From Henckelia pumila (taxonomy: Eukaryota > Streptophyta > Magnoliopsida > Lamiales > Gesneriaceae), in NCBI RefSeq assembly GCF_033568475.1, contig NW_027331831.1, positions 11,098,001 to 11,162,000 on the forward strand: DNA of 64,000 nucleotides, in the 5' to 3' direction. Below the pieces are notes generated by a model. The model did no database searches and was not told where the DNA came from. It was given only the letters and a program-made list of their open reading frames with translations. The translations under genes and the position numbers were made by a program. Position 1 is the first letter of the stretch, and each line of letters opens with the position of its first letter. Shown here in pieces: positions 15,393-62,248 of the stretch.

Positions 15393-17405
15393 ATGACTTC
15401 TTTCAACAAAATTCCTATGTTTTTTAAAGAAGATTATGATGACTGGAAAATCCGCATGCAGGAACATCTTGTAGCATAGGACGATGACATGCTATATGTC
15501 ATAACAGACGGTCCTATCAAAATCATGAAGGTCAACCCAGCTCTAACCGATGGTGCAGGACAAATGATTGAGAAACCAAGAGCTGAGTGGACTACTGAGG
15601 ACAAAAAGAAGGCCAATCTTGACAATGTGGCCCAGGACACCCTATACAAAACTCTGGATAAGAACATGTTCAGCAAAATCAAGTCATGCTCCACAGAAAA
15701 GGAGATTTGGGAGAAGCTCACTCAGCTGTGTGAAGGAAATGACCAAACCAAGGAAAACAAGCTCACTATGGCCATTCAAAAATATGACAATGCCAAAATG
15801 AAGCCAGGGGAAACCATGGCTGAATTTGATGAACGGTTTAGTAGTATCATTTGTGACCTTATTGCTTTAGGAAAAACTTATACTAACCGTGAAATTGCTG
15901 TGAAGGTTATGAGAGCTTTGCCCAAAGAATGGGAGATCAAGACAGTGGCCATGAGGGAGTCAAAAGACTTAAGCAAGGTTGAACTGCATGATCTCTTTGC
16001 AGATCTCAAAGCCTACGAGTTCGAGCTCAACATGAGGACAGAAGATGAACCATCTACCTCTCAACCAACCAAGGCCTTAACCTCAACGGTGATGCGTCCA
16101 CCGATCGAGGAAGCTCCAAAGAGATCAGCTGAGCAAATCAGCAATGAAGCCATGACACTCTTTGTCAAGAAATTTGGTAGATTTATGCGTAAAAACAATT
16201 TTAAATTTAAAAATTATCATAAATCGGACCATACAGACGATGGTCCTACTTGTTTTAACTGTGGCAAGCCAGGCCACTTCATTGCAGATTGCACCAAGCC
16301 TAAGAGCAATGATCAGAAGCAAGTTTTCGAAAGAAGAAAGGGAAAGGAGAACAAGAGGATGTTTAGAAAAGGAAGAAACCAAAGGGTTCTAGTAGCAGAC
16401 GAAAGCAAAAGCAAGTGGGCTGAGTCTGACTCTGACAAACCCAATACCGGAAGCTCTTCAGATGACAGCGATGATGAAAAGGTTGAATGTCTTATGGCTG
16501 ACATCGAAGAAGAAGCTGAGGAGGTATTTGACTTTGGTTCACCTGAATTTACTCACAGTGATCTAGTTACTGCTTTACACGAAATGACTAATGAATACAA
16601 AACATTATCCAAGGAATTCGAGGAGGTAAAGGCAGAAAGAGCTGACCTAAAAGATAAGTCAAGCGAGTCAAGCTGCATGCAGCGAAAAGAGCTTGATGGT
16701 CTTAAGGTCAAGCTAAGTCTGCTGGCTACTGAGAATGACACCTTGAAAAGAGTGTTCCAAGCAACCTTGACTGAGAACAAAAAACTACTTGAAACAATTA
16801 AGGCTTGGAATAAATCTTCGGTAACCATTGACAAGATTCAAGAAATCCAAAGACCGGCACATGACAAAACCGGTCTAGGGTTTGGAACAAATGAACAGTC
16901 TATGGAATCTTATATTCAGTCAAGCCTGGACAAAGGCAATCTTAACAAAATAAGATTTGTCAGGTCCAGCACGATATATGAACATGATGAGTGCAGCTTT
17001 GACAAAAATCAGAAAGTATCTAACGAACGAAACTCTAAGCATAGAGGGCTGGGATATGTGGATCCCCAGATCTCTAATCAAAGAGGAACTTGGATTAAAC
17101 CAAAACCTAATGAAAGAAGAAAGGGAAACCAATCTAATTTCAAAAGGCCATGGAATGAGTCTAACTACTCTAAGAGAAGATGGTCAAAGGAGAAGCCTTA
17201 CCAGTACTTTAATTGCAGGCCAGTTCAAAAGAGGTACAGGCTAACTGATAAAGATCAAAAAGGCAAGCAGCACATAGCAACCTCACAAGCACACACATTT
17301 ACTGCTTATCGACCGCACAGATTTCTGGACACACACACGGGCAAACCTGTAAGGGTGTTCCAGGTGTGGGTCCCGAAAGGGCTAATCCGACCTGGACCCT
17401 ACTAG
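15393..17405 (+). pseudogene. Copia gag with in-frame stop
   Basis: Gag capsid/nucleocapsid protein. The natural start is ATG 15393, but TAG at 15477-15479 cuts the frame after 28 codons. The remaining open frame runs from 15489. It shows a UBN2-type capsid region (EIWEKLTQLCEGND, MAEFDERFSSII, ALPKEWEIKT), a zinc knuckle CFNCGKPGHFIADC near 16255-16296, an acidic Ser/Asp stretch and a coiled-coil-like segment. It ends at TAG 17403-17405. The pol frame continues in the same frame right after this stop, so the stop either separates gag from pol by readthrough or is a mutation. Confidence 0.85.
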
Positions 17406-17432
17406 ATATGGGTACCAAAAGTTCCTCACTTT

Positions 17433-20400: not shown

Positions 20401-20633
20401 TCTACTGTGACAATACAAGTGTCATAGCCATCACTCACAATCCAGTGATGCACTCTAGGACAAAGCACATTGATGTCAGGCATCACTTTATCCGAGATCA
20501 TGTCTTAAAGAAGGAAATCAGGCTGGAATACATCTCTACCGATCAGCAAGCAGCAGACATATTCACCAAGCCTTTACCGGACGCTAAGTTTTCATATTTT
20601 CGAAATATTATTGGTTTAGTAGATCTAAGTTAG
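17433..20633 (+). CDS. Copia pol polyprotein (PR-INT-RT-RNase H)
   Basis: The open frame of about 1066 codons continues in the gag frame; the nominal start is only the first possible codon (TTG), so expression needs readthrough or fusion to gag. Domains in order: aspartic protease with [12 protein letters not shown]; integrase zinc region with HKRLNH and CPAC; integrase core with [14 protein letters not shown] and [12 protein letters not shown] with [22 protein letters not shown] and YVDDIIFGS; RNase H with YSDADYAG and TAEAEYLA. In the integrase, the usual catalytic Glu of the AER motif is Lys (codon 18372-18374), so strand transfer should be lost. RT and RNase H motifs look intact. The frame ends at TAG 20631-20633. 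Confidence 0.93.
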
Positions 20634-20837
20634 TATGCATGTTTTTAGGGGGAATGATTGCCAGTATGACGTTAATAGCTTAGCTGTTACATTGCCATAA
20701 ATGTTGGCATATCATCCGCCTTTAGCTAGTCTCTGACAGACTCCGTACTAGCAGCTTTGTGCTTTGAACCAAATGACATTAATTGGGCGCGGTGATTATA
20801 CTCTTCAAAACTTTTTGAATTTCAAAAATACTTTTCA

Positions 20838-20873
20838 TGACGTCACCCTATGGCCCATAGGTTCCTATATATA
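20838..20873 (+). promoter_or_regulatory. Promoter-like cluster before Copia ORF2
   Basis: Between pol and ORF2 stand, in order, a palindromic bZIP box TGACGTCA (20838-20845), a site II-type GGCCCA (20852-20857) and a TATA box TATATATA (20866-20873), about 125 bases before the ORF2 ATG. The spacing looks like a plant core promoter, suggesting a separate ORF2 transcript. Promoter activity is inference. Confidence 0.55.
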
Positions 20874-20996
20874 CTTCTTTACACTCGTATATCAACCTTT
20901 CACCGTTGCTAAAGCTTTCATATTGCATTAAAAGTTCTATCGTATTACTATCAAGCTTTTGCTTACTCTCTGCTCGAGTACTTATCTACAGCTATC

Positions 20997-23759
20997 ATGT
21001 CGATCCAAAAGACTTGCCTTGCAATCAACTTTGATTCCGTTATTGAGGCAAACAATGCAGGAATCACTGAGGTCTTCACCATGCTTGAAGCCTCTGGACT
21101 AAAGAAGTTTCTGGGAAGCAGCGCCATCTGCGATCTGCCTGTATTGAAGGAGTTCTTTGCAACCGCTCAAATCGAGCATGAGACTGTCAAATGCTTGATC
21201 CGGACAGAGTCCTACTCATTCAATCAAAAGTTCTTCGCCAGCACATTTGATCTGCCCTCCAGGGGTTTGACAAAATGCGCGGATCTTCCCGATGGTAACT
21301 GCTCATACTGGTTAAAGGAGTTCTCAACCACTGATGCTCCGATCAAACTGCCGGCTCAGAAGACATCTCTTAAAGCTTCATTCAGGCTATTGACCAACAT
21401 CGTGGCCAAGAATCTTCTTGCCAAGGCTGGATCATACGACAAGGTGACGATGGAGAAATTCCAATACATGACTTGTATCACCTCCAAAATCAACATCAAC
21501 TGGTCAGACATATTGTTCACTACCTTATGTAAAATGATCAGGGGAAAAGGGCAATCCGAGGGATTTGCTCTGCAAATTTGCCACATCTTGAGCGTCCTTG
21601 GAGTAGACTTCTCCAAGACTGAGCCTCTGCATCCCACCAAATGGCTCAACAAGTCTACAATCTTCAAGTTTCTGAACAAGAAAGAGGTTGCGGTCGACAC
21701 TCTGCCTTCAACCGCAAGTGTTATTGCTGTCACTCAACCGCTTTCAACAGTTCCGGTAGCGGCCCAGCCAGCCCATACCAAGAAATCTGCCAAGCGTCAA
21801 CTTATCATAGAGACTGACTCTGAAGACGAATCACGTGAGAACGTTCCACTGATTCAAGCCTTCAGCAAGTCATCTCCTTATGTCTCCAAAGCAGCTGTGT
21901 CATCCACGCCTGCAGGCGAGAAGAAGAGGCAGCACAAGAAGTTAAAGTCTCTTTCTGGACTTGCTCCTACCGTTCCAACACCAATTCTGCCAACGGTTGC
22001 GACTACTACCACTGCTGCTACTACTGCTCCACGTCCTACCAAGGGTGTGATAATCAGGGAAGGTGCCTCATCAACTCCAAAGGTCACTCTCGCTGATCCC
22101 AAGGACAAAGGGAAAGGTGTGATGATCTACTCACCTAAGGCTCAACCAGCAGCTACTGTAGAGCTCAACTTGATCATCTCTCACGTTCTCCGCACTGTCA
22201 AGCGTCACCTACAACGCTTTGACAGATGGCATCATTCCCGTACTCACCTGACGCTTGCTCAAATATTTCCTAAGTGGAAATCTCTGAATGTTATTGAGCA
22301 AAAGATGCTTCTTTTTGCTGACACTAAAGACATCGTGGAGGCTCTGGGAAGAAGACAGCTCATCGACTTGAAGCTTCGAGGAAGCCTGTTATCTCTGTTG
22401 ATTAATGAGCGTGTCAAGAACTTCAAATCCAAGAGTCCTACCGCCGCCGATGACTTTGTGATTCTGACTGGACTACAGAATAGTCTACGTCAAATCACTC
22501 AACTACTTCAGCACTTCCAAGCTCTTAACAACGTAAACACGGCAGCTTCAGCAGCTTGTTTACAGGCTTATGGACTGGAAGCACAGGTGATGATGAAGAC
22601 TTTTCTTACCCAAGATCAGGGTGAAGAAGACGTCTCTGCTTTTACTCTTTCAGATAGGATTCTGACCGGTCTCATCACTGCTGACCTGTTTCAGTCATCC
22701 GCTCTAGGATCGATTGTGGGAGCATCTTCATCGGTCGACCCCGCCTCAACCGCAGTCCAAGTAGTAATTCAACCGGAAGCAGCTGTGCCTGCTCACTCAT
22801 CTCCAGCGACGACCGCTCACACCTCTCCCAGTCGTCCACACGATTCTTTCGAAGTGATTGAAAAAGAGATTTCTGTCACCTCTGTGACCGAAGCCCCTTG
22901 CAACAGTGAAGCAGTAGTGCCCCCAACAGAGATACCAAGCACTATTGTATCACTTGCACCTCCAGAACAACCAATGACTGATGCTGACCCAGCACTTCAA
23001 CCGTCTCCATCTACTGAAAAGTTTGTGGAAGATCTCCTAATGGATGAACCGAGTGCTGATCCTGCTACTCCACCAACCATCTTGGCTGCAGTCGAGACTC
23101 CTACATCTCCAACTGTACCACTATTGGAAGGTCCATCAGCTAGCTCACCAGCCAGATCACCAGCACCACATCATCTTGAGTCTGGCCCGGTTTCACCAAG
23201 GAATGACACACAGAGTCAAATGCTTCCGATTGATGACTCATTAATTGAAGCCATGGCCGCAGCTCTGGATCACACTTTGATAAATAGGCTTCATGAGCTC
23301 ATGCAAACAGTTCGATCCTTCTCACAAGACATCACAAACTCATCCTTATCGGTTGAAAATTCACGCCAGACGATGATTCGGCATTTTGAGACCGTGTCTC
23401 GAGACCTTGCTCACCTGTCCAAAGAGATCACTGCCCATCATCGCACTCAAATCAATACGCTCTCTACCGTCTCCGAACAAGTTGTAAGATCCGAAAACCG
23501 CCTTCATAGGCAGTTGAATGATCGGATGGACACTATGCAAGCTACTCTACTTGCTCAACTAGATGCAAAAATTGATACTATGCAAGCCTGCCTTGGCACT
23601 CAACTCACTGAGATCATCCTTCGACTCAACCAAGGTGATGCCAAAAAGGGGGAAGAAGAGCAACGAAGAGCAGCAGAGGCAAGAAGACGTGAGGAAGAAG
23701 CCGACATAAGAAGAAGAGAAGGCGATAGGTCAGGAGGAGCCAGTTGGTTCAAAAGATGA
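20997..23759 (+). CDS. Copia ORF2, large protein of unknown function
   Basis: An uninterrupted 920-codon frame begins at ATG 20997, 363 bases after pol, in the position of the env-like gene of Sireviruses. The N-terminal 250 residues look globular. The middle is rich in Pro, Ser, Thr and Ala. The last 200 residues look helical or coiled-coil, ending in a charged Arg/Glu stretch (RRREEEADIRRREGD). No clear signal peptide or membrane segment is visible, so an envelope function is not supported. Several stops follow pol in the same frame, so simple readthrough cannot make it; a promoter-like cluster lies upstream. That the frame stays open suggests youth or selection. Confidence 0.8.
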   Translation: MSIQKTCLAINFDSVIEANNAGITEVFTMLEASGLKKFLGSSAICDLPVLKEFFATAQIEHETVKCLIRTESYSFNQKFFASTFDLPSRGLTKCADLPDGNCSYWLKEFSTTDAPIKLPAQKTSLKASFRLLTNIVAKNLLAKAGSYDKVTMEKFQYMTCITSKININWSDILFTTLCKMIRGKGQSEGFALQICHILSVLGVDFSKTEPLHPTKWLNKSTIFKFLNKKEVAVDTLPSTASVIAVTQPLSTVPVAAQPAHTKKSAKRQLIIETDSEDESRENVPLIQAFSKSSPYVSKAAVSSTPAGEKKRQHKKLKSLSGLAPTVPTPILPTVATTTTAATTAPRPTKGVIIREGASSTPKVTLADPKDKGKGVMIYSPKAQPAATVELNLIISHVLRTVKRHLQRFDRWHHSRTHLTLAQIFPKWKSLNVIEQKMLLFADTKDIVEALGRRQLIDLKLRGSLLSLLINERVKNFKSKSPTAADDFVILTGLQNSLRQITQLLQHFQALNNVNTAASAACLQAYGLEAQVMMKTFLTQDQGEEDVSAFTLSDRILTGLITADLFQSSALGSIVGASSSVDPASTAVQVVIQPEAAVPAHSSPATTAHTSPSRPHDSFEVIEKEISVTSVTEAPCNSEAVVPPTEIPSTIVSLAPPEQPMTDADPALQPSPSTEKFVEDLLMDEPSADPATPPTILAAVETPTSPTVPLLEGPSASSPARSPAPHHLESGPVSPRNDTQSQMLPIDDSLIEAMAAALDHTLINRLHELMQTVRSFSQDITNSSLSVENSRQTMIRHFETVSRDLAHLSKEITAHHRTQINTLSTVSEQVVRSENRLHRQLNDRMDTMQATLLAQLDAKIDTMQACLGTQLTEIILRLNQGDAKKGEEEQRRAAEARRREEEADIRRREGDRSGGASWFKR

Positions 23760-37406: not shown

Positions 37407-38750
37407 TAGGTGGGGACTTGTGAAAAAATGAACTGCAAAACCAAGGGTTTTTTTTTTTTAATTATTAATTTTAAAAAATAAATAAATTTTAAAAATATTT
37501 TAAATGACGGAGGATTGCAAAACTTCGTTGCAAGCGGACACTGCATAACCTGCAAAAATGCAAGTCCCCAAGTCACTTTCTTTTCTTTTCTTTTTTTTTT
37601 TTTGTTTTGTTTTTTAATTAATTATATAATTATTAAATATTTTTATAAAATCATTATTTAGATAATCTTTTATATGTTATATAAATTTTGTAAAAGTTTG
37701 ATTTATGTTTGGATTGAGTTCGGTTTGATAAATTTTTTAATAGTACTTTACGTCAACCCGACTTGAATATAATCGATTTAATATTTTTAACCATTACGTT
37801 TTTTATTTTCGTTTTTTTAATAATTTTTTTATTTGGACATAAAATCCAAAATTTAAAATTAAAATTTAGAATTTTTTAGAAACAAAATTCTATATTAATA
37901 ATAAATAAATAATGATTTTATTAAAATATTTATCAATTATATAATTAATTTTTTTAAAAAATAAGACCCAAATATATATTCGAATTAACTCATTTTTGTT
38001 TGTTAATAGAACTGAAAGACCTCCATAAATCCAAACAAATTAAAATAAACCAACAACTACGCTAACCAACTTTATAATTAAAAATATAATATAAAATAAA
38101 AAATAAAAAAAATATTTGTTAAACCAATATTTCTATAAATATAAATGATCACAAATAAATTTCTTTAATCGGTTTAATTTTTTTAACCATTAAATTTTTA
38201 TTTTTTAATAATATTTTTAGTTGAACTTCAAATCCGAAATTTTAAATTAAAATTTAGAATTTTTGAGAAACAAAATTCTATTAATAACAAATAAATAATG
38301 ATTTTATTAAAATATTTATCAATTATATAATTAATTAAAAAAACCCCGAATATATTTTCGAATTAACTCATGTATGTTTGTTGTTAATAAAACTGAAAGA
38401 CCTCCATAAATCCAAACAAATTAAAATAAGCCAACAACTGCGCTAACCAACTTTGTAATTAAAAATATAATATAAAATAAAAAATAATCAAAAATATGTG
38501 TTAACCAATATTTTTATAAACATAACTGATGACAAATAAATTCATTTAATCAGTTTAATTCTTTTAATCGTTAATTTTTGTAAAATTAATTATATAATTA
38601 ATAAATATTTTTATAAAATCATTATTTATTTATTATTGATATAAAATTTTGTTTCTCAAAAATTCTAAATTTTAATTTTAAATTTTGGAATTAATTATAT
38701 AATTATTAAAATTAGGTGGGGACTTGTGAAAAAATGAACTGCAAAACCAA
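37407..38750. repeat. 1.27-kb AT-rich repeat block between 38-bp direct repeats
   Basis: A 38-base sequence beginning TAGGTGGGGACTTGTGAAAA stands at 37407-37444 and, identical by eye, at 38713-38750. Between them are two diverged tandem units of about 381 bases (shared GACCTCCATAAATCCAAAC at 38018 and 38399) and inverted fragments of the same unit near both ends (for example TAATTATATAATTAATAAAT). The block may be an insertion that duplicated its flank, or a segmental duplication. Confidence 0.65.
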
Positions 38751-46253: not shown

Positions 46254-46620
46254 GTGTGGCGAACCTAGATGGTCCCGAAAGGGGGCGACCGGCCCCCCTC
46301 AAATTTAAAAAAAAAAGTACTATATATGTAATATCTCTTTTAAATACATGTTTAAATTATGTGACCACCTTTTTTTTTTTTTTTTTTTTTTAATAACTAG
46401 TACTATATATGCGCTATTTATAAATTATAATGTATGGGCTAAGTTTTAAGTTTTAACTAAACATGGGTTGGGCCGTTAGAATCTTAACCATAAAATCTAA
46501 ATTTTAATTTTTAGATAGCCTGTATAAAGAAAGGGCAACTTGTAGATAACTCCCTAAATCAAACATAACTTTTAATTTACTCCCTATATTTGTCTTTCCG
46601 AAAATGCCCTTGTCGTTATT

Positions 46621-48083
46621 TTAATCATTATTATTTCTTGAATTATCAAATGTGGAATCGGATTCAAAATTTGATTCACTTGATTCATCAAGATAATAAA
46701 TATTTTCATCATCGGATGAAAATTCAATTGTTTCTACGAGATAGAATCCAATAGTATATATTTCTTCAAGAAGTTTAATTTTATTTTTCTTTTCGTTTCG
46801 TTTTGGACATTCATTCGCATAATGTCCTTCTTCGTTGCACAACCAACATGTGCAATTCTTTCCTTTACCCTTTGGGAAAGGTGGTTTTTTGTTATCAAAC
46901 TTTTTATAAAATTTTATTTTATAAGGTTTTCTGAAATTTTTTTTTTAAATTTCTTTTTCTTATAGGGAGTAAATTTCTTATTAAAAGATTTATAAGGTTT
47001 ATTAAATTTATTCTGTTTCTGTCGTTTTAAATATTTGTGTGACATGTTCGTTTTGCAACCGTATTCTTTTACTGTGAATTCCATTTTGTCACAACAAAGT
47101 TTATTGTTTTGTTTGTAGGATTTAGAGATTTTTTTATTTAGTGTTACTTCATGACATTTCTTTGTTATTATGTCTTTGATGAATTTAATAGCTCCTCCTA
47201 AAGTTTTAGCATAAGGACTAGTTAAGAATTCATCTTTACTGTGTATAGGTATATTAGGTATCTTATTAAAGATACTTAGTTTATAATGTTCCTTTTTATC
47301 AGCATCTATTAATTGATAATACTTTGTTTCATAATCACAAATAAATTCTTCTAAGTAACATAAATTGCATAATTTAATATTATCTAATATAAAGATTGCT
47401 CTATTTTGTTCTATATTCTTAGCTACCAAATTAGCATCATTATTAGAAACTTCTAAAAATTCTTAGTACAAGGCATCAACAAATAGTTCGAAATATCGAT
47501 GTCCTGTCATTCCTTGTGGTAGATTAGTAATTACTAGGTTTTCAGCCCAAGTTCTTACTGCTCCTACCAGTGTCATTTTTATCATCCCATGAGTTAAAAC
47601 TTGAATATTCTCACTTTTGTCTAATAATAGTGTTAATTGAATTTGTACTGATAGTTCATTTTCCCAATGATCTATCTTTGATTTTCTTTCTTTGGCTGTT
47701 GAACATCCTAAATCTAAGATATTTTGTTTCACAAATCCTGATGTTTTTGATTCTCTAAGAATATCTCTAACATCTTTATAAGATCCAGAGTATTGGTCTC
47801 TGTTATATTTAAATTCTTCATCATCTCTTCCACCACTACCTTCTACATTCGTTCGTAGATTTAATCGTGGTCTAGAATCATCTTCAGATTCTGATTCTCA
47901 AAAATATCCATATCTTTATATGGTTCTGAGTCCTGATGTGAATGATATAATTCTTCTGTATTTACTCCTATTTGTTCAAAATCAGATGAGTCGGTTTCAC
48001 TAAACATCTCCATACTTATGTTTGTCATAACTAAGGGGATTTCTATACCATGATTCAATTTTGAATGGTGGTTCTTCTTCCAT
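46621..48083 (-). pseudogene. Endogenous pararetrovirus coat protein, broken
   Basis: Coat-protein (Gag-like) gene of a Caulimoviridae genome. ATG at 48081-48083 is 10 bases after the preceding ORF. An acidic N-terminal part (47861-48058) is followed by the capsid core (about 46914-47732), a Lys-rich stretch (KKKKFKKK), then the CCHC zinc finger (CNEEGHYANEC, about 46800-46842) and an acidic tail. This order of acidic end, basic stretch and zinc finger is the family pattern. The frame changes at least three times, and there is a stop at 47463-47465, so no whole product can be made. Confidence 0.75.
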
Positions 48084-48092
48084 TTTTATTTT

Positions 48093-48293
48093 TCATTTAT
48101 CTATTGGAAGAACTTCCTTAAGATAGTTTAATATTTCATTACTATGTCTTTCTTGTTCAATTATTAATCTAGTCGTTGCTAAATCAATATATTCTTTGAA
48201 ATTCTTCTCTAATTCTTGTATTGATAGATTGATCTTATTAATATTATTTTCTAAATCTCCTAGATCTTTTTCTAATTTTATTAAGGACGTCAT
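48093..48293 (-). CDS. Pararetrovirus small coiled-coil protein (VAP-like)
   Basis: A 66-codon ORF between movement and coat protein genes. It is almost wholly helical with heptad-like Leu/Ile spacing (LEKDLGDLENNINKINLSI). Position, size and coiled coil fit the virion-associated protein of caulimoviruses, which links virion and movement protein. Its ATG overlaps the stop of the previous gene (ATGA). The frame is open, but the surrounding genome is defective. Homology was not tested, so the name is inference. Confidence 0.5.
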   Translation of the reverse strand: MTSLIKLEKDLGDLENNINKINLSIQELEKNFKEYIDLATTRLIIEQERHSNEILNYLKEVLPIDK

Positions 48294-49240
48294 TGCGATG
48301 AGGTTGACTCATTAACAATAGCTTGTTTAATTTTAATAATATTTTGATTCATGGTTCCAATCTTATCAAGAATATCTTCATCATTTCTAGCAAATGATAA
48401 TGATCTTCTTGGTACAGACTGTTTTGTGATTTGGAGGTCATCTGAACTCCATCTTTTATAGGGATTTATTTCTTCAATAAATGATTTTCGAGGGTGTTCA
48501 ATTCTTGTAATATTTTCAAACATTCTTTCAACAGAAATAGTTGGTTTTGTTGAAATTATTCTTGTTTGAGAATTATTACTTATTGCTAAACCGACAACAT
48601 AGTTTATATTGATCGGATGGTTTCCTGTTAACATAAGATTATTTCTATAAAAGTAATAATCTAATGTTAAAACGTCATTTATGTTTTTATCAAAAAGAGA
48701 TATATTGTATTGTGGATAAATACAAAATTTCATCTTTTTGTAACATAAATTTCCTTCAATTTTTCCAAGAATAGAATCCTCGAAATTACGTATTCTTTTG
48801 TCACGAACTGTTATTTCAATTGGTGTATCTATTCCTTCTCGGTAGTGAGCTGATATTATTATTTCAATTCCTCCGATATGAACATATTTCAGTTCAGATC
48901 GTTCTTTTTCACTGGCTTTTGCCATGATGGTATTAATATCTTGAGTTGTTAATAACTTCAGAGTATTAAACCTTGATTCGTTATTTATTTTACAAGATCG
49001 TTATTTTGTACGAATCGAATAATAAATTAAATTTTTCCTGGGATTAATAAAATTTGAAATCTTACTTAGTATTCCTGGTTGGTCTATTAGATTTGTTTTT
49101 GAATTAAAAAACCCTGTTTTCTGTATTTCAGCAAACTTGCTTTGATTGAATATAATATTCAAATTATACTCTTAGTTTTCTTCAGATTCTTCAGATTCAT
49201 GGACCAGGTTGTTTTGATTTGGAATTGTTACTTCTGTCAT
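48290..49240 (-). pseudogene. Pararetrovirus movement protein (30K type), broken
   Basis: The frame from ATG 49238-49240 to 48290 would give about 316 codons, near the caulimovirus movement protein size. The core (YVHIGGIEIIISAHYREG, GNLCYKKMKFCIYPQYNISL, then NINYVVGLAI) has the beta-rich pattern of 30K cell-to-cell movement proteins. In-frame stops stand at 49172-49174 and 49001-49003 in the N-terminal third; the part from 48925 is open. Confidence 0.7.
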
Positions 49241-49241
49241 T

Positions 49242-49535
49242 TTAACAGATGATAGAACTTCTTAATTTTCTTAAGGCTATTAAAAGCCTTTTTGTCGAAT
49301 ATATCTGTTCTAATAAATTCTGAAAATCTTCGAAACTATCAATTGAAGATTGACAAATTTTAAGATGTTTCAAATTGTTTTCACAATTTTCTATATCAAA
49401 ATTTATATTTTGAGAATATAAATTAAAGATATTCATTTTTGTATTTTCATATATTTTCCATTTAGTAAAAATTGTTACTTTTATTATTTTGTTTTTGTTG
49501 ATCGGATTTCGATAACAAAGTTTGTTCTTATTCAT
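49242..49535 (-). CDS. Pararetrovirus small ORF B, unknown
   Basis: A 97-codon open frame, Lys/Ile/Asn-rich, just upstream of the movement gene (one base between its stop and the next ATG). Its start overlaps the end of ORF A by 8 bases. No domain was recognised. Position is that of ORF VII and neighbours of caulimoviruses. Tight stop-start joints fit translation by reinitiation. Confidence 0.5.
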   Translation of the reverse strand: MNKNKLCYRNPINKNKIIKVTIFTKWKIYENTKMNIFNLYSQNINFDIENCENNLKHLKICQSSIDSFEDFQNLLEQIYSTKRLLIALRKLRSSIIC

Positions 49536-49749
49536 AACATATTGTTATGTCTTCAATTTCATCGTTTTCATAAATTTGAATTATCATTTTCCAGTTGCTT
49601 GAAAAATGTTCTTTTTTATGATTTTTGAAATAAAAGGTTTGGAGATATTTTATTTTATTCCATAATTGATCTATTTGACGTAAATCTTTTAGTAAGATTA
49701 TTTTATCAAATAAATTTTTAATCTCAATATCTAAAGTTAATCCAGACAT
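49528..49749 (-). CDS. Pararetrovirus small ORF A, unknown
   Basis: A 73-codon open frame (MSGLTLDIEIKNLFDKII...) beginning 20 bases after the primer site, where caulimoviruses have ORF VII. No domain was recognised. Confidence 0.5.
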   Translation of the reverse strand: MSGLTLDIEIKNLFDKIILLKDLRQIDQLWNKIKYLQTFYFKNHKKEHFSSNWKMIIQIYENDEIEDITICYE

Positions 49750-49769
49750 TAATAATTTATTTTATTTAA

Positions 49770-49781
49770 GCTCTGATACCA
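49770..49781 (-). other. Pararetrovirus primer binding site (tRNA-iMet)
   Basis: On the minus strand TGGTATCAGAGC is exactly complementary to the 3' end of initiator tRNA-Met. In Caulimoviridae this site primes minus-strand DNA and marks map position 1. Confidence 0.92.
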
Positions 49782-49789
49782 GGTTGTGG

Positions 49790-50620
49790 AATTCTTCAAA
49801 TTCTTATGAATTTTCTTATTAATGGGTTTACAGATCTGATTCATGGATTTTCAGATCTGATTCATTTATAACAGATAAATGTTTTCATATTAGTTTGGTT
49901 CCATTCTTGGATTATTAATACAAATTTTAGTTGATAAATTGATTCAAATATGGTTAAATCAGAAGTATTTAAACGATATTCACGAAATGTATCATATTCA
50001 TGATCATCTTCTATTTCGAACTAGTTTTTTATTATTAATCTTCCATTTCTTTGATGATGACATGATTAATGTATTTTGACTATTTCTTTGAATTAAGGGC
50101 TGCACGAGGTTTGGGAAGGTTACCTTGTTTGAATGAATCTTGGTTTTGAGCAAAGGCCAAATCTTTGCTTTCCCTTAACGATCACTTGATCAGCTGGTAC
50201 TTGCTCTATGGATCTCCAGGTTTACTCTTAACCATGAATATTCAATGATTGGGTTCCAACCTTATTCTCCTTACGCCCTGCTTGTTTAGTTATTAGCCAT
50301 AAGGCTTATTTTGTTTCTGATTTTATGTTTCTTAGTTTCTGATAGTTTTCATACGTCTTGTATGAACCAGATTGTAAGAAACTTTAAGAAGAGAGAGATA
50401 CTCAAACTTCACTTACTTCTTTACAGCACAAAACATCTCCTTTTATAGGTGTGGAGAAACGCATACATAATTAAAAATAAAAGAAAAGAGGGGGATCACC
50501 CGACACTACATAATGGAAACAGCTCATTTTACATCTGAGTGGATGCCTTTAACATGTGGTGTGGTCCATGATTTCATTTGTTTTTACATTGTGTCACTCT
50601 CTAAATCACTGGTGCATTCA
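49790..50620 (-). promoter_or_regulatory. Pararetrovirus large intergenic region
   Basis: Non-coding stretch between the TAV-like gene and ORF A. On the minus strand a TATA box CTATAAAAGG (50439-50448) is placed like the 35S pregenomic RNA promoter, leaving a leader of roughly 650 bases before the primer site. Long leaders are usual in the family. Confidence 0.6.
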
Positions 50621-50622
50621 GA

Positions 50623-51775
50623 TCATTTCTTTATTGGTTTGTCTTCTTTGACAGCTGGTTTGTCCTCTTTGACATCTGCTTCTTCTGTCTGAATGGGTTG
50701 GCAATGTCCACATTTGTGAGTGGATATCATTGTTCTTAGTCTTTGACATAACATTTGTTGGGTTTCCCAGGTCATGTCAACTCTTGCTTCATAGATTGGA
50801 GCTTCGAATTGAGCTAACATGGCTTGTTCTTTCTTTTGGATTGTCTCCTTGTGTCCAGTGGTTAATAAAATTTTACTGGTTGCAAAAATTATTAACCTTT
50901 GAGTTTCCATCAATCTTTCCTGTCTTTGAGATCATATCAATCAATGTCTTTATTCTTATCTCAGGAAGTGTTGAGATATCCATTACTGGTTTCTCTTCAT
51001 TTGATCATTCGAATAAGAACTTGTCTTTTTGTTTTCGACATTGAATATATACCATTGGTTGATAGAATTTGTTATCATCCCAATCTGGAAGGGTTGAGTG
51101 AATACTCAATGTTAATACTGGATCGTCCTTAAAGACTGCTTTCTTGAACTGGATGATACTATTTCTCAACTGATATGGAAATAGTTCTATTTCTTGATTG
51201 TTGGGACTGACTTCCAATCCACTTAATAATCCATTTGAAAAGAATCTTGCGACTTCATGCGCTGGAGCACCTTGCAGTGTTCTTGCTCTTGATATGCTCT
51301 GTGTGTCACAAGTTTGTAGCCAAGATTCTGCAGATGGTTTGGCTATTCTCAAATAGTTTAGTGTTTCAAAGAATTCAGTCTTGAGTTTTTCTGAAAAATT
51401 TGTTTTCTCAAAAATTGGTTTTTGTGATCTCAGATTGACCATCTTTCTTTCTTTTTTTTCAAGGGCACTTTTAAACGTCCTTTCTTCTTTTTTATTTTTC
51501 TCGGTGCTGGCTGTGTCCACCGGTTCTTTTTTCTTTTCTTTTTCTTTGTCAGTGTTGGCTGTGACCACTGACTGTTTCTCTTTTATCTCCATTATTTTGT
51601 CAAATGGAGTTGCCATTTTGATTGGTGTTCTTGGTGAGGATGATGATGATGAAGTTATCATCTTTTCTTCTGTCCTTTGAATTTTTCTACTCAAATTCCT
51701 TTCTTTTAGTTGAAGAATTTGAATTTCTTCCTGCAATTCAATCAATTGTTCTTTTAATTGACTTAGTTGCTCCAT
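50623..51775 (-). pseudogene. Pararetrovirus TAV-like (ORF VI) gene, broken
   Basis: Position after RT and before the large intergenic region fits ORF VI, the inclusion-body/translation transactivator. From ATG 51775 there is a coiled-coil N-terminus (LKEQLIELQEEIQILQLKER), a Lys/Glu/Ser-rich stretch, and a core with SWLQTCDTQSISRARTLQG and VARFFSNGLLSG. A stop stands at 51005-51007, and the last part (50623-50913) is in another frame. Identification rests on gene order and general similarity. Confidence 0.6.
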
Positions 51776-51940
51776 CTTGATTATACTCTGCACAAGAAAA
51801 CATATTTATATATATAATGGTTAGTAAAATAACTCTTTTCGTGAGTAATTCAGATAGTTTTATTATGCGTATCATTGCATTTATAAATTCTTTTGCAAGA
51901 ATTGAATCAATCTTAAATTGATTATTTTACTCAAAGAGTA

Positions 51941-52107
51941 ATTTATGTTTCTGAATATAAATCTCATTTCATCAATTTATATTCCCCATGCTTTCTGAGG
52001 CATGTTCGGATGACTGAAAGTTATAAAATAATTCATGTTTCTGAATATAAATCTCATTTCATCAATTTATATTCCCCATGCTTTCTGAGGCATGTTCAGA
52101 TGACTCA
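51941..52107. repeat. 90-bp tandem duplication at RT 3' end
   Basis: The text starting CTGAATATAAATCTC stands at 51951 and 52041, with near-identical sequence through GAGGCATGTTC(G/A)GATGACT. The second copy carries the RT stop codon; the first lies in the space before the TAV-like gene. Confidence 0.9.
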
Positions 52108-54106
52108 CAGTCATTTTCTGGATCACTTAGGATCTCCTTTATTATTCCGTTACTACGGATAGTATAGTTTGGATGAAGTTCTCTGGTTAATGCGTCGGGT
52201 AATGAATTATCCGTTCCTTTGACATGTTGGATCTCGAACTGATAATGGTTCAATTCCAATTGCCATCTAATTAGCCTTGCTGCATTTCTCCCTGCATTTC
52301 TTGATATTTTCCTTGTTTTGAAATATGTTAAATTCATATTATCTGTTCTTACTAAAAACGGTTTAGAAATAAGATAAATTTCATAAGTTCTAATTGTGAA
52401 TATTAAAGCTAATAATTCTTTTTCATTCGAATGATAATTTAATTGTGCACCTTGAAAAGTTCCTGATGTATAGTTGCATAATTCTTCATTATTTCTAGTA
52501 GCTGTTTTAGTAAGTTCTTCTAAATTTCTTTCTCCAGTATAAGCTTTTAAACATGCTCCCCAGTATTCATCTGAAGCGTCTGTTTCAATTATTATTATAT
52601 CTTTATTTGAAGGAAAATATAATTCAGGAAGATTACTAATTATTTTCTTTTTAATAGTGTCTATGTAATTAGTATCTTCTTTCGACCATTTCCACTTATA
52701 GTCCTGTTTAAGTTTTACCTGAAGAGGTTTTCTGATTTCTCCAAGTTTCTAAATGTAATTTCCAGAATAAGTTAATAATCCTAAAAATCTTCTTAATTGA
52801 TCTTTATCCTTAATTTCACTAGGAAAATCATGAATTTTCTTAAGTATATGTGGTTGTAAACAATATTTTCCATCTTCTATTTGTAATCCTAAATAATTTA
52901 TTTTTGTTTTGAATAATTGTGCTTTCTTTTCAGAAAATATAATTCCATCTTTATGACAAATATCTAAAACTGTCATGAGATCTTTATAATGTTGATCTAG
53001 TGTTTTTGAATAAATTAATATGTCATCTATATAAACGCAAAAAAATCTATATATGATTTAAAAGATTCATCCATATATCTTTGAAAGATACCTGGTGCTT
53101 GTTTAAGTCCGAAAGGTAATACAGTCCATTGATACTGTCCTTTTGGACAAGTGAATGCTGTAAGTAATTGTGTTTGTGGTTCTAGTTGAATTTGCCAGAA
53201 TCCCGATTTACAATCTAAACTGGAAAAATATTTCATTTCTCCTATATAAGATAGTAAATCATTCTTATTTGGGATATAATATCCATCCATAATTGTTGCT
53301 TTATTCATCTTTCGATAATCAATTACCATTCTTTTCTTATCAGTATCTTTCTTACTGACATAAAAGGCTGGTGAAGAGTGTGGACTTTTACTAGGGATGA
53401 TTATCTTAAGTTTTAATAATTCTTGAACTTCTTTTTCAAATATTTTTGCATCATCCATGTTACATCTTCTTGGTGCTTCACGGATTGTGATATTAGGGTC
53501 TTTGAGTTTTATTGAAGCAATGAATTGTTTTCTTTTCTTAATTTTGTCCTGAGGATTTTCAGAACATATATCATGAAATTTCCTCATGATTTCTTTTTCA
53601 GGATTAATCGTTAAAATATTTTCTATTTTTAGTTCTATTGAATTTGTATTTCGTTTATGAAAATTCTTTGTAAATCCTTCATTTTCTACGTGAAATGCTG
53701 TTCGTATTTTGGGAATGTAAATCATTGATGATCCTTTGTTTAAAGTTATGTGATCTTCAAATTGTGTAAAGGGAAGATATTCTCTTAAAAAGTTATTTCC
53801 TATTATAATGTCCATTCCTGATTCTATTTGATATATAATGGGTATTACAAATTTTGTTTCTTCTATTTTTATTTTTAATTTTTCTGCTACTGTATTAAGC
53901 ATGATTATTGATCCATCTCCTATTCGAACTTTTAATCTTTTATCATATTTCTTCCAATAATGATTTGGAAGTATATGCTTGCTTCCTAAACACATACTTG
54001 CTCCTGTATCAACATAAGCATGTATATGATATGGTTTATGTTCTTTGATTTTAATTTGAATTTTTATATATATATTATTTGGATTAGTTTTGTTTTTATT
54101 ATCCAT
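52062..54106 (-). pseudogene. Pararetrovirus protease-RT-RNase H, broken
   Basis: The ORF V-type polyprotein starts at ATG 54104-54106. Aspartic protease site YVDTGAS, then RT with SPHSSPAFYVSKKD, RMVIDYRKMN, SSLDCKSGFWQI and LPFGLKQAPGIFQRYMD. The frame changes at a seven-A run (53039-53045) just before the YIDD box. A TAG stands at 52749-52751. RNase H follows with ETDASDEYWGA and DALTREL near the end. No integrase is present, as expected for Caulimoviridae. One frame change and one stop make this one of the better-kept genes of the copy. Confidence 0.9.
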
Positions 54107-54765
54107 TCTCTCATTTTTTTTATTTTATTTTAAGAGATAAGGGTAAAATTGGTATTTAGAAACAAAAGTTTCTCTCTCCAGGGAGTTGAAAGTAAGTTTT
54201 ATTTATGTAGGGATTTATAAATAAGTTATAAAGTGTTTTAGGGAGTGATTGATAATTAACCCATAAAGAAAACGTGTGAATGAAGAAGAAAGGCGTGAAA
54301 TCGTGAATAGAGAACCCCCAATCGACCGATCTCAGATCTCATTCTCGAGCCTTTCCTTGAAGCCCCGATTTTTTTTTGACGGATTGAAGCCCCGATTTTA
54401 GTAAGTAATTTCATATTTAAGGTTTATTAATCTCCATTCTTGCACTATTTCTTGTTGGTGATTGGCGTTTGATTACATATCATAATTGTTCATTTTGTTT
54501 GCACTATAAAATATCAATCAAGAAATTCAAGGTATAATTAAATAAACATAAACTTGTTTTTCTTCTTGTTTTGTGGAGATAGCGGGCGGGGGACAGTGGC
54601 TTGTGGTCTGTGGACAATGGTAATATACTAATATTCAATTTCTGCTTTTAGTTGTAGTGGACGGCTCTGACTTACGATTGGAGATTCTTGATGTTTTACG
54701 GAATCAATAATTATGCTTTTAAAATGACATGTTAAATTGTTAATGATAAATTAGGTGAAATAACA

Positions 54766-55869
54766 ATGTTGAGGTATTTTAAGATGATGCGAGATGAACC
54801 TACTTCAAATCGGGCATCTCCCGCTCTACCACCACCACCTCCTTCTGCTGCTGAATCGAATGAGTATCCTAGAGATCCTGGGCTAAGAAAGAACATCCTA
54901 GAGTATAATGTGAATGAAAGAGAGATTGTTCGACGTTATTATTTACAAAATGGTCCATTCCAGCCTAAAAATCATAAATTTCCTTGGCGTTCTTGTGCGA
55001 AAGAGAAACGAAGATTTCGAGCTATATGGTTCAGTTATCATCCTAATTGGCTAGAGTATAGCATTGCAAAAGATGCAGCCTTCTGTCTTTAATGCTATTT
55101 ATTCAAAGCTGATCGTGGTGATCAAAGTGGTGGTGAAACTTTTGTTACCGAGGGATTTACAAATTGCAGAAAGATAGAAAAATTCCAGGAACATGTTGGA
55201 AATCAGGGCAGCGTTCACAATAAGTGTATGATGGCAGCTTATGACTTAATGAATAAAAAACAACATATTGAAACTTGTTTGGTAAAACATTCTAGTCAGG
55301 TAGCTGCCGATTATCGTGTTCGTTTGATCGCTTTAATTGATTGCATAAGATTTCTTGTGCGTCAAGGATTACCATTTCGTGGTCATGATGAATCCAGATA
55401 CTCACTCAATCATGGTATTTTTCTTGAACTCTTAAGATTTCTAGCTGACCATAATGAGGATATCAATAGAGTCACACTGGACAAGGCTCCTGATAATCTC
55501 AAACTAACATCGCCTAAGATTCAACATAATATTATCAGATCCATTGCCTATTTAACCACTAATTCTATTCTTGGAGATCTTGGTGATGAATTATTTACAA
55601 TATTGGTTGATGAGGCTCGTGATGTATCTGTTAAAGAGCAAATGACAATAGCTTTACGATTTTTAGATGAAAGAGGATATATTGTTGAATGCTTTCTAGG
55701 CATTGTACATGTAAGAGATACTACTGCTTTATCACTTAAGACTTCAATTGATTCTTTGTTGTGCCAACATGGGTTATCTATATCTAACTTGCGGGGGCAA
55801 GGATACGATGGAGCTAGCAATATGGAGGAGAATTTAATGGATTAAAAAGTTTAATTATGATGGAGAACA
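54766..55869 (+). pseudogene. hAT transposase, TTF/DUF4371 (ZMYM1-like), truncated
   Basis: DNA transposase start. ATG 54766; a Pro-rich segment, then a TTF-type zinc-finger region (RRFRAIWFSYHPNWLEYSIAKDAAFC) and the DUF4371/hAT core start (VTEGFTNCRKIEKFQEHVG, FRGHDES, LTSPKIQHNIIRSIA, LVDEARDVSVKEQM). In-frame TAA stands at 55090-55092 and the frame is lost near 55835. The reading is cut at 55869 by the Gypsy LTR; the rest should continue beyond the Gypsy element, outside the window. Confidence 0.85.
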
Positions 55870-57624: not shown

Positions 57625-60600
57625 TCAGTCGAATAACTCTGGAAATCGCAGCCTCATATCAGATTCTGTCTCCCAAGTTGCCTCTTCAACTCCATGACGA
57701 CTGCACTGAATCTTCACTAACGGAATCAACTTGTTTCTGAGTTGCTTCTCTTTCCTGTCAAAAATGTGAATCGGTCTCTCGAAGTAACTCAGAGTCTCAT
57801 CTAGTTCGGCCTCATCTGGCTGAAGGACATGAGACGGATCCGGATTATATTTCCGCAACATCGAAACGTGAAACACATCGTGGATGCCTGAAAGAGACGG
57901 AGGAAGAGCAATCCTATAGGAAAGATCGCCTATCTTCTCCAGAATTTCGTACGGGCCAATGAATCTCGGCCACAACTTCCCTATTTTCCCGAATCTGACA
58001 GTACCTCGGAACGGAGAAATCTTCAAGAACACTCGGTCTCCCTGATCAAAACACAGTGGTCTGCGTCTGATATTCGCGTACTTGGCCTGTCGATCTTGGG
58101 CTGTCTTCATTCTGGTTCTAATCAACTTCACCTGCTCTGCCATATCGCGAATCATATCTGGACCCAACTCAGGTGATTTTGAAATCTCATCCCAAAACAA
58201 CGGAGATCTGCACTTATTCCCGTACAAAGTTTCGAAAGGTGCCATTCCAATACTCGTTTGGAAGCTGTTATTGTACGAAAACTCCACTAGAGGAAAAGAA
58301 TCCTGCCATCCTGAGCCAAAATCAAGCACTACTGCTCGAAGCATATCCTCCAAAGTCTGGATCGTACGCTCGGACTGACCATCCGTCTGAGGGTGATATG
58401 ATGTGCTCAAGTGTAATCGAGTACCCAATGCCTCATGTAAACTGTGCCAAAAGTAAGAAGTGAATCTCGGATCTCTTTCTGATACTATCGACTTCGGCAC
58501 GCCGTGAAATCTCACAACCTCTCTGACATACAACTTGGCCATCTGATCGTGACGGTATGTCATCCTGTATGGAATGAAACAAGCAGATTTTGTCAACCGG
58601 TCAATCACTAACCAAATCGCATCACAACCTCTGACTGAACGCGGTAGTTTCGTGACGAAATCCATCGAGATGTGATCCCATTTCCATTCCGGGATAGGCA
58701 AATTGTGCAATAATCCATCTAGTTTCTTCCTCTCGGCTTTCACCTGTTGACAATTCAGAAAACGAGACACAAACCTCGTGACGTCTCCCATCAATTGTTG
58801 CCACCAGAACTGAGTCTTCAAGTCGTTATACATCTTTCGGCCTCCGGGATGAACACTGAACCGACTGCAATGCGCCTCTCAAAGAATACGCTGTCTCAAC
58901 TCAAAAACATCGGGCACAACAATACGGTTATTCACGAATAAAACATCACCCCTGACCTGAAATTCTGACTGATGACCTGATCTGACCTTCTCTATCAAAC
59001 TCTGACTGCTCGGATTAGATCTCTGAGCCTCTCTAATCATCTGAAACAACTCTAGTTCGGTCTGAATCGCAAAAACTCTGATTGATCTCCTATCGGTCTC
59101 AAACTCCAAACCAGAAGTACAACAGTCTTCAATCAACTGAGAGACACCAATCGTTGCTAGAGATAAGGAACAAAGCTTCCGATTAAGAGCGTCTGCAGCT
59201 GCATTCGACTTTCCAGGATAATACTTGATCTCACAGTCGAAGTCCTTAAACAAATACATCCATCTTCTCTGTCTCATGTTCAGCTCGGACTGAGAAAACA
59301 AGTATTTTAGGCTCTTGTGGTCAGAAAATATCTCAAATGACTCACCATAAAGGTAATGGCGCCAGGTCTTCAAAGCAAAAACGATCGCAGCAAGCTCAAA
59401 TCATGGATAGGATAACGAGTCTCGTGCAGCTTCAGCTGCCTCGAACCATAAGCTATGACATGGTTCCTCTGCATAAGAATGCATCCAAGACCATGGTGAG
59501 AAGCATAACAGCAAACGGAAAAACCTCCCGTACCTGATGGAATAGACAAGATCGGAGCGCTGGTCAACCTCTTCTTCAGCTCAAAGAAACTGGCCTCGCA
59601 CTCCTCGGACCAAAAAACGGTGCATTCTTCTGGGTCAACTGGGTAATCGGCTTTGCAATGGAAGAGAAACCCTCGATAAATCGGCGATAATACCCTGCTA
59701 AACCCATAAAACGTCGGATTTCTTGCACTGATGTCGGTCTCGACCAATTCATGACTGCCTCGATCTTACTAGGGTCCACAACAATCCCATCTCCCGATAT
59801 AATGTGGCCTAGAAAAACAACTCGGTCCAACCAGAACTCGCACTTCGATATCTTAGCATACAACTGTTCGGCTCGCAAAATCTGCAATACAATCCTCAAA
59901 TGCTCTGCATGGTCAGAACGGTTCTTCGAATAGATCAGAATGTCGTCAATGAAGATAATGAAAAACTCATCTAAAAACCGCTGAAAGATATGATTCATCA
60001 GATCCATAAAAAATGCTGGAGCATTGGTCAAACCAAACGACATGACTATAAACTTGAAATGCCCATATCTGGTTCTGAAGGCTGTCTTAGGCACATCCTC
60101 GTCGCGAACTCTCAGCTGATGATACCGTGATCTCAGATCTATCTTCGAATACACTGAAGAACCTTGTAGTTGATCAAAAAGATCATCAATTCTAGGTAGA
60201 GGATACTTGTTCTTGACCGTTTCTTGATTCAACTAGAGATAGTCGATGCAGAGTCGCATAGAACCGTCTTTCTTCCTCACAAAAAGGAATGGAGCACCCC
60301 AAGGCGATACGCTAGTTCGGATGTATCCCTTGACAATCAAATCTTCTAACTTCTCCTTAAACTCCTTCAGTTCTAATGGAGCCATTTTATAAGACGCTTT
60401 CGAAATAGGCTGAGTACCTGGTGCAAGTTCGATGTTAAATTCGATCTCTAGAATAGGCGGCAAACCAGGAATCTCGTCTGGAAATACATCAGGAAACTCG
60501 CTAACCACCGGTATCTCAGTCAACTCAGGACTAGACCTCTGAACATCTACTGTATAAATAAAGAATCCATCTGCTCCTCTCTGTAGCAAACGAGACATGG

Positions 60601-61051
60601 ATAACACAGAAATCAAACGAATTCTGGATCGAGAACCCTTACCGAAAAACTTCCAATAATTTGCCATCTCAGGTCTGAATCGAACCACTTTTTGAAAGCA
60701 ATCTACTGTCGCCCTATACTTGGTCAAAGCATGAATCCCGATAATACAGTCAAAATCAGATAATCCAAGTACAATGCAGTCAATCTTAATCGAATTCCCT
60801 TCGGACTCTAACACACAATTACGGACCAATCTCACCGAAACAGTTTCCCCACCCTAAGGTGAAGTGATAGAAACGACATCAGATAATGGCTCAGCAAATA
60901 AATCATGCATCACAACAAATCTTTCAGAAATAAAACAGTGAGAAGCACCCGTATCAATCAAAACATACGCAGGATAACAAAAAATCGAACAGTTACCTGC
61001 TATCACATCATTCGGAGCTGCATTGGCCTGATCCTCTGTCAGGAAAAACAC
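57625..61051 (-). pseudogene. Gypsy pol (PR-RT-RNase H-INT-chromodomain)
   Basis: Protease YVLIDTGASHCF; RT with [40 protein letters not shown] and FIDDILIYS; RNase H with ASHHGLGCILMQ and [14 protein letters not shown]; integrase with MDFVTKLP, VSERDPRFTSYF and HPQTDGQSERTIQTLE; then ISPFRGTVRFGKIGKLWPRFIGP and the CR-type chromodomain end EATWETESDMRLRFPELF of Tekay/Del elements. Breaks: TAG 60854, TAG 60233, two frame changes in RNase H (about 59600 and 59380), TGA 58879. The second catalytic Asp of integrase is Glu (SERD for SDRD), and a zinc-binding Cys is Phe (SRFLNC). Confidence 0.9.
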
Positions 61052-61063
61052 CCTCGCCTGCTG

Positions 61064-62248
61064 TTAAGGAGGTTGGTTTTGATTCTGATTACCTCCCTGA
61101 CGAGATTGTTGCTGGGGCTGAAAAGAATGGACGACAGAAGCTGCTCTCTCAGGCTGAGCTGGAGGTCGAGAAGAACTGCCGCTCTGAGCTCTATCGGATC
61201 CTCGCTGAGGACAGACTCTAGCAAAGTAACCCGGCTGCTGGCAGATATTGCAACTACCAAACACGCCTCGACACTGATAACTTGGGTGACGTCCTCCACA
61301 CTTATTGCACGATGCTCCTGAAAACCCTGAATTTTGTCCGGAACTGAACTGTCTAGAGCTGCTAGAACTCGATGAACTGCTCCCAGACTTCTTAAATTGC
61401 TTCCCCTTCGGTCGATACTGATCTCGCCTGTTTTTGCCACTGTTGCCTCCCTCAACCCTCTGAGATTGATTCGACTGCTGAGAAGGTTGGTACTGATACT
61501 GGGACTGTTGAGGCTGAAACTGAACAGGCTGATTGTGAAAAGATCTCTGCTACTGCTGAGGAGCTATCTGATTTTCTCGTTGCATCAAAAGTCCAGCTTC
61601 GTCTCCTTTAGCCTGATCCATGGCATCTGCGAAGTTATTGGGTCTCCTGGTATTGACCAAAGTAAAGATCTCAGGATTCAAGCCTTTGATGAAATGATCG
61701 GCTTTGGCTTCTTCGTGATCTGCGATGTGAGGTGCAAAACTCAAGAGACTGTCAAACTTGCTTACATATTCCTCGATACTCAAATTCCCTTGCTTCAAAT
61801 TCGCAAATTCGGCACCTTTTTCCTTACGATACGAGACAGAAAAGAACCGCTTGTAGAACTCAGTCTTGAATAAATTCCAAGTGACAACGGTGCCTCGATT
61901 CTCATTTGCCTTCTTGGTTGTGGTCCACCAATTCTTAGCAGCACCCTGTAGCTGGTGAATGACTAACCTGATTCTGCGGTCATCGGTTTAGTCGAGAGAA
62001 TCAAAGAGCTGATCAATGTCCAATAGCCAACTTTCACAGTCAACGGAGTTCTCAGTACCCATCAAGGTAGGCGGTCGGAACGATCGAAATCTCTTCAATA
62101 GAGTCTCCATAGGAGTCGCGGTTGCATCAAACTGATCCACTCCAGTACTACCCTGATCATTCGGAGGAGTTACTACTGGCTGCGGATTCTCAGTAGAAGG
62201 AGGTACCAAAGGTGCTTGATTCCTTCTCATAGATCGTCGAGGTGCCAT
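61064..62248 (-). pseudogene. Gypsy gag
   Basis: Starts MAPRRSMRRNQ at 62246-62248. Capsid part includes NLKQGNLSIEEYVSKFDSLL and ADHFIKGLNPEIF; then a Gln-rich stretch and zinc knuckles CNKCGGRHPSYQC and CNICQQPGYFARVC. In the second knuckle the expected His is Tyr. Stops at 61988-61990, 61550-61552 and 61064-61066 lie in one frame that continues into pol. Confidence 0.88.

Follow-up and report, generated by a model that had tools for sequence, protein, structure and literature searches.

A probable Mutator-like transposon with a caulimovirid genome as its cargo in Henckelia pumila

In a 64-kb stretch of the Henckelia pumila genome (contig NW_027331831.1 of assembly GCF_033568475.1, positions 11,098,001 to 11,162,000, hereafter the window) a caulimovirid genome lies on the minus strand at 46533-54262, where it has been opened between the stop codon of its coat-protein gene and the start of its protease-reverse transcriptase gene and is held between inverted ends. 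This piece, here called the arm-virus unit, is probably a Mutator-like DNA transposon, non-autonomous and about 7.7 kb long, that carries a caulimovirid genome in circular permutation as its cargo. Further copies, given L-numbers below, are found in the same genome, and since pairing of both ends reveals that copies have 9-bp duplications of their own, the unit appears to have moved in the manner of a Mutator-type element. Caulimovirids are generally without an integrase, and a review (PMC10377300) offers break repair or borrowed retrotransposon machinery as ways in which they may come to fill plant genomes. In the present case a DNA-transposon mechanism would have multiplied a pararetrovirus genome, leaving target duplications at individual copies, and many copies of an endogenous virus would then not have to imply many infections. 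The replacement of a viral integrase by a transposase also becomes a question that can be tested within one genome.

The ends, the copies and their target duplications

The same 9-mer, ATAAAGAAA, stands immediately outside both ends of the unit (Table 1), as a preliminary description of the window had already noticed. That description had also counted by eye 19 identical bases among the first 26 of the inverted ends, which is borne out by an ungapped comparison in which 21 of the first 30 bases are identical; none of 5000 shuffled end pairs was as good, the best of them reaching 19, and when the first 140 bases of the ends were aligned locally with gaps, 6 of 2000 shuffles reached the score obtained. 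An unweighted scan of the whole window for 9-mer pairs with such ends gave 3 matches of at least 21 in 40 shuffled windows, therefore the plain count of end matches is not decisive by itself. When the end score was weighted by base, a score as high was found in none of 100 shuffled windows and in none of 1000 shuffles limited to the flanks of the virus. The motif ACTCCCTAAA is present in both ends, at bases 17-26 from the terminus. The inverted terminal repeats that belong to the Mutator-like element (MULE) superfamily are present, though degenerate when compared with the typical long terminal inverted repeats (TIRs).

The borders of the virus are as first described, with the coat stop at 46621-46623 and the ATG of the protease-reverse transcriptase gene at 54106, whereas the arms, suggested there to be those of a miniature inverted-repeat transposable element (MITE) of about 244 bp, measure 83 and 129 bp and come to 212 bp together. 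A further feature, absent from that description, is a second 9-bp direct repeat, TTATTTTAA, which is found between the arms and the virus and is here called the inner repeat.

The assembly in which the window lies (884,658,702 bases in 133 contigs) was searched with the left junction, a query of 128 bases made up of the 83-bp arm, the inner repeat and the end of the coat gene. The search returned 433 first-look candidates, an unverified count, of which 40 were scored, and all 40 match 126-128 of the 128 bases at 98-100%. These 40 copies represent 39 distinct sites with the window site included, as L003 and L004 are counted as one. These two lie on small contigs (C28 and C15), have identical flanks and the same element end, and are probably the result of redundant assembly. 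The left terminus is the same in 30/30 loci, two of them with a single base change, and the start of the left arm could be placed in 10/10 additional copies. Inward from the junction, 27 of 29 non-window loci continue over more than 1.1 kb at 95-98%, the continuation being shorter in L005 (360 bp) and L021 (about 700 bp). The right end was sought by coordinates in 39 non-window copies (29 plus 10, at 38 sites) and was located in 18 of them, giving lengths of about 7.6-8.1 kb.

In these 18 paired copies the 9-bp duplication is strictly identical in 14/18, compared with 6/306 in control cross-pairings, and in 16/18 when the boundary is allowed to shift by up to 3 bases, compared with 7/306. If one mismatch is allowed the duplication is likewise found in 16/18. 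Of the two copies that no shift brings to identity, L010 has one mismatch, the other being L017 (see below). All 18 have different 14-nt left flanks. As nearly every paired site has a 9-bp duplication of its own, the arms are the boundaries of the moving unit. The target duplication of about 9 bp that is characteristic of the MULE superfamily is therefore found in 14/18 copies strictly and in 16/18 with tolerance of a shift, and, as is seen with Pack-MULEs, captured non-transposon sequence is present in multiple copies with differing duplications. The preliminary description had reasoned that a transposon which had captured the virus genome, and transposed with it as a unit, would be revealed by several copies alike in their junctions but unlike in their 9-bp duplications; the same junction in 40/40 copies and the duplications in 14/18 lend support to that proposal.

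The target sites also bear on how the chimera may have been formed. A motif built from 29 distinct left 9-mers (L001-L030 without L003) is AT-rich, position 2 being T in 90% of them and position 8 being A in 86%. When scored with this matrix on its better strand, the inner repeat ranks among the highest 0.05% of the 9-mers of the window and the highest 0.9% of all-AT 9-mers, and its score is equalled or exceeded at 1 of 7492 virus positions. A 9-base match as close as the inner repeat is itself expected in 0.3-1.5% of comparable zone pairs. Because it scores so highly on the target matrix of the family, the inner repeat has the look of a duplication for which this machinery was also responsible, at the first joining of arms and virus.

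History of the copies and rival explanations

The history of the copies was read from three gene pieces, namely protease-reverse transcriptase (PR-RT) in 16 of the 29 fetched copies, coat protein (CP) in 27 of 29 (L003 and L004 both included) and movement protein (MP) in 18 of 20, with the window copy added to each. The copies radiate, nearly star-like, from nearly one sequence, which suggests a single burst. The median pairwise divergence is 2.1-2.3% (about 2.2%), which is about 1.1% per copy, and with a plant rate of 7e-9 or somewhat higher a single burst would date from roughly 1-2 million years ago. In the trees of the PR-RT and CP pieces alike, 92% of the total length lies in external branches, and the nodes with support of at least 0.9 number 0/14 for PR-RT and 8/25 for CP. 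Shared variants are mainly of the C-to-T type (24/33, 34/46 and 29/38 in the three pieces) and the overlapping variant pairs are mostly mutually incompatible (173/190, 242/276 and 212/228), L003 having been dropped from both counts, therefore the shared variants are likely to be largely the product of recurrent decay. The three pieces (17, 28 and 19 copies) have 68 gene-breaking changes between them, of which 54 are private; none is found in more than 4 copies, and in no piece does any such change reach more than half of the copies. As these changes are mostly private, the frames of the source were open in the three gene pieces tested. The variants of PR-RT and MP, whether private or shared, are without an excess at third positions, and the shared variants of CP lean slightly toward synonymous change (17/47, or 36%, against 26% expected).

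From these observations a mechanism can be proposed. A Mutator-type transposase encoded elsewhere in the genome may recognise the ends in trans. The chimera could have originated from Mutator machinery acting on free circular virus DNA at the spacer between the CP and PR-RT genes (the CP/RT spacer), since the inner 9-bp repeat has both the size and the motif of the target duplications of the family. Amplification might then have occurred by repair-coupled transposition or by viral reverse transcription. The small amount of inherited variation and the finding of 0 junctions with abutted ends lean toward DNA transposition, and the position in the CP/RT spacer, with a source whose frames were open in the pieces tested, would also allow a chimera that was still living as a virus.

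There are a number of observations that do not sit easily with a transposon of this kind and which weigh against it. The copies analysed are the best matches to the window copy and no random sample. One paired copy, L017, is without a duplication under every shift tried. The right end is missing from the stretch read in 21 of the 39 non-window copies, and probes placed at +3 kb and +5 kb in 10 of these detected the element at one or both positions in 5 and at neither in the other 5; from the probes and the search for right ends it follows that many copies are truncated, interrupted by nested insertion or deleted. The ends are short and degenerate (21/30), unlike the long TIRs of MULEs, and the CP tree, with its supported nodes, is not a pure star. 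Lastly, divergence between copies (labelled L031-L059, L087 and L099) is 5.2% in the right arm and 2.3% in the adjoining 300 nt of virus, a difference that may be due either to faster mutation of the arm or to some of its variation being older than the virus. The left arm, which lies within the query and was hence selected for similarity, differs by 1.0% between copies.

The most serious of the other explanations is that the chimera is itself an integrating pararetrovirus, with the arms joined in the CP/RT spacer and all genes whole, whose circle replicates by reverse transcription and which is inserted, and perhaps excised, by a host Mutator transposase. The burst would then be an infection together with the insertions made by the transposase, and, if true, the ends of a transposon would have stood in for the missing integrase. 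The position of the junction, which leaves the genes uncut, a source that was open in the gene pieces tested and the large number of copies made from nearly one source within a short time are all in agreement with this, as are the inner repeat, which suggests that the transposase encountered free virus DNA, and the synonymous lean of the shared CP variants. However, PR-RT and MP do not have the third-position excess, with the shared PR-RT variants comprising 4 synonymous changes, 25 non-synonymous changes and 4 stops, and the C-to-T type and mutual incompatibility of the shared variants indicate recurrent decay rather than inherited virus diversity. Abutted ends, the trace of a captured circle, were found 0 times in the genome by an exact-flank pattern, which is a weak negative. 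On balance an integrating virus is considered unlikely, and transposition of the arm-virus unit as cargo-bearing DNA is preferred.

An explanation that is less likely again, to the point of being improbable, is that one virus was repeatedly inserted into the members of a single MITE family that were already present, each time at one and the same central base and by way of a shared 9-bp microhomology, with the outer duplications belonging to the older MITEs. The joined arms fold at -26.1, lower than the mean of 200 shuffles (-15.3, standard deviation 2.8, lowest -28.5), whilst for 200 pieces of equal length drawn at random from the window the mean was -17.8 and the lowest value -57.8. The greater divergence of the right arm than of the virus is as would be expected of older arms. 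Passages of PMC10377300 and PMC4241990 present the entry of caulimovirids as filler DNA at hairpin-prone sites as a standing hypothesis, and a passage of PMC8277862 holds that most single-copy Pack-TIRs in animals arise by gap filling. Against this, dozens of independent events at an identical base with the same inner repeat would be needed, and by a hand estimate the 14-16 intact duplications among 18 are nearer to the number expected from the age of the virus (about 15) than from the divergence of the right arm (about 11), with which they are still compatible.

Two further explanations have next to no probability. A single virus genome in one MITE, by ordinary endogenisation, had been put forward in the preliminary description and agrees with the window taken alone, but is refuted by 40 verified places that share the junction, with flanks that differ and duplications of their own in the paired copies. 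Spread by segmental duplication or redundancy of the assembly would account for the identical flanks of L003 and L004, which count as one site, but is refuted for the paired copies by their 18/18 distinct 14-nt left flanks and 14/18 matching duplications.

Two ideas on the origin of the junction were tried and rejected. Linearisation of the virus at a plus-strand discontinuity receives no support: the junction, with 3 pyrimidines in 25, is rich in purines but contains no exact purine run of at least 11, and other tracts of the virus are equal or better. Breakage of a foldback hairpin at the centre of the MITE is compatible with the folding energy, and is superfluous since the inner repeat fits the target motif.

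The viral cargo and its surroundings

The features of the unit are listed in Table 1. Membership of the Caulimoviridae is indicated by the A3 protease (PF02160) and reverse transcriptase (PF00078) and by the movement protein (PF01107), at the E values of Table 1, together with the coat protein (PF22909, 27.8 bits with a cut-off of 27).

Table 1. Positions of the features of the arm-virus unit within the window
Feature	Position	Strand	Remarks
Outer 9-bp target duplication ATAAAGAAA, left copy	46524-46532	.	Exact sequence match
Left arm, 83 bp, starts GGGCAACTTG	46533-46615	+	Bases 17-26, counted from the end, are ACTCCCTAAA
Inner 9-bp direct repeat TTATTTTAA, left copy	46616-46624	.	Matches the target motif of the family
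Coat-protein gene pieces	46621-47897	-	Caulimovir_coat_dom; zinc-knuckle-like stretch by eye; stop and frame shift here
71-aa small open reading frame (ORF) between movement and coat genes	48093-48308	-	Like a virion-associated protein, as suggested by position
Movement-protein gene	48290-49171	-	PF01107, E 5.6e-32 in piece 48290-48925; one frame interruption here
Presumed initiator-tRNA primer-binding motif TGGTATCAGAGC	49770-49781	-	Exact 12-mer match
266-aa ORF downstream of reverse transcriptase	51005-51805	-	Position suggests transactivator/viroplasmin; without convincing family match
Protease-reverse transcriptase-RNase H gene in pieces	52062-54106	-	Peptidase_A3 E 1e-43, RVT_1 E 1.7e-22 (53027-54106)
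Inner 9-bp direct repeat TTATTTTAA, right copy	54125-54133	.	
Right arm, 129 bp, ends ...TAACCC, inward reading GGGTTAATTATC	54134-54262	-	
Outer 9-bp target duplication ATAAAGAAA, right copy	54263-54271	.	Exact sequence match

Read from the right end on the minus strand, the order is protease-reverse transcriptase, the reverse transcriptase/RNase H pieces, the 266-aa ORF, the primer motif and small ORFs, followed by the movement protein, the 71-aa ORF and, at the left end, the coat protein. We take this to be the gene order of a circular caulimovirid genome, and TGGTATCAGAGC to be the primer-binding motif for the initiator tRNA. Judged by gene order, the cargo is apparently a complete caulimovirid genome in circular permutation. 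The window copy is disrupted by a few stops and frame shifts, including a further frame shift and a stop in the protease-reverse transcriptase-RNase H gene beyond the 53027-54106 piece. The 91-aa piece at 52062-52337 where RNase H was looked for, part of a longer frame at 52062-52748, has no family match. In the 8 virus pieces scanned, which form part of the element, no integrase family was found at E 0.1 and no transposase family was found.

The reverse transcriptase piece has 170 protein relatives at E 0.001 or better, and the best three among the matches listed have identities of 40-51% by the BLAST column and 44-54% by alignment. The movement-protein piece (48290-48925) had a sole match among 50 candidates, LOC142521795 (P0241) of the gesneriad Primulina tabacum, to which it is 71% identical in an alignment of 178 positions. 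No relatives were confirmed in viral_contigs. Within the virus, behind the end of RNase H, is a near-perfect 90-bp tandem duplication (51939-52114). A 15-nt inverted match between the left arm and the coat gene falls within a lysine-rich coding stretch and is taken as chance, and a minus-strand stretch at 68-157 of the window resembles the zinc-knuckle part of the piece from the coat protein, with 38% identity in 34 residues.

To the right of the element is a plus-strand hAT-like DUF4371 ORF (54766-55845) with an in-frame stop, which matches PF14291 at E 1.1e-66 in 55093-55845, and near 46260-46300 the left flank looks, by eye, like the end of a hAT element. The arm-virus unit may therefore lie inside a broken hAT transposon, and no convincing hAT right end was found. 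Retrotransposons are also present in the window. A plus-strand Copia-type element with gag and RVT_2 occupies 15342-23759, has its primer site at 15342 and contains a 948-aa ORF (20913-23759, plus strand) that has no Pfam match at E 0.001, and a minus-strand remnant of a Ty3-type element at 57625-61987 retains pieces of RVT_1, integrase and RNase H. A 381-bp tandem duplication lies within 37813-38683, and a perfect 30-bp inverted pair is flanked by the 9-mer ATTTTAAAT at 38239 and 38683. The TCP gene at 4788-5927 is 71-72% identical to proteins of Dorcoceras and Primulina, and its identity to a protein of Sinningia is 60%.

Comparison with known systems

As a decayed caulimovirid genome in a plant chromosome, the unit resembles the endogenous caulimovirids, such as florendoviruses, endogenous rice tungro bacilliform virus (ERTBV) and other endogenous pararetroviruses (EPRVs). 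These are described, in passages of PMC10377300, PMC526188 and PMC4241990, as entering by break repair, often at TA or palindromic repeats, or with the help of retrotransposons. Ordinary endogenous caulimovirids have neither a regular duplication nor constant ends; the unit described here differs in that its ends are constant and nearly all paired copies have a 9-bp duplication. The review PMC10377300 states that hijacking of a transposon integrase has been suggested, but the reference cited for this (62) concerns retrotransposon insertions in human disease, and a beginner's guide (PMC10741241) names petunia vein clearing virus as an exception among the integrase-less caulimovirids. No case of a caulimovirid inside a TIR element or with Mutator ends was found among the matches listed in the open PMC literature.

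With Mutator MITEs the unit shares short AT-rich arms, inverted ends and a 9-bp duplication, but its internal region is a virus of 7.5 kb. It is also similar to Pack-MULEs and Pack-TIRs, in which foreign sequence between non-autonomous TIR ends is moved as a unit with separate duplications, as described in passages of PMC8277862 and PMC3310237. It differs from these in that the cargo is apparently a complete viral genome, open at amplification in the pieces tested, rather than a gene fragment, and in that the ends are short and degenerate with a cargo far longer than the arms. The host-gene cargo between long, similar TIRs that marks a Pack-MULE is not what is found here, the cargo being viral and the TIRs short and degenerate.

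A further likeness is to Teratorn of medaka, the virus part of which is reportedly a herpesvirus, and in fusions of this type the transposase is presumably encoded inside the element. In the arm-virus unit it is a plant pararetrovirus that is joined to a Mutator-like element, and the pieces scanned contain no transposase. What the two have in common is a virus genome fused to a DNA transposon, in Teratorn a piggyBac element (as given in a passage of PMC10175614), and the arm-virus unit of Henckelia pumila would thus be a plant counterpart to such virus-transposon fusions.

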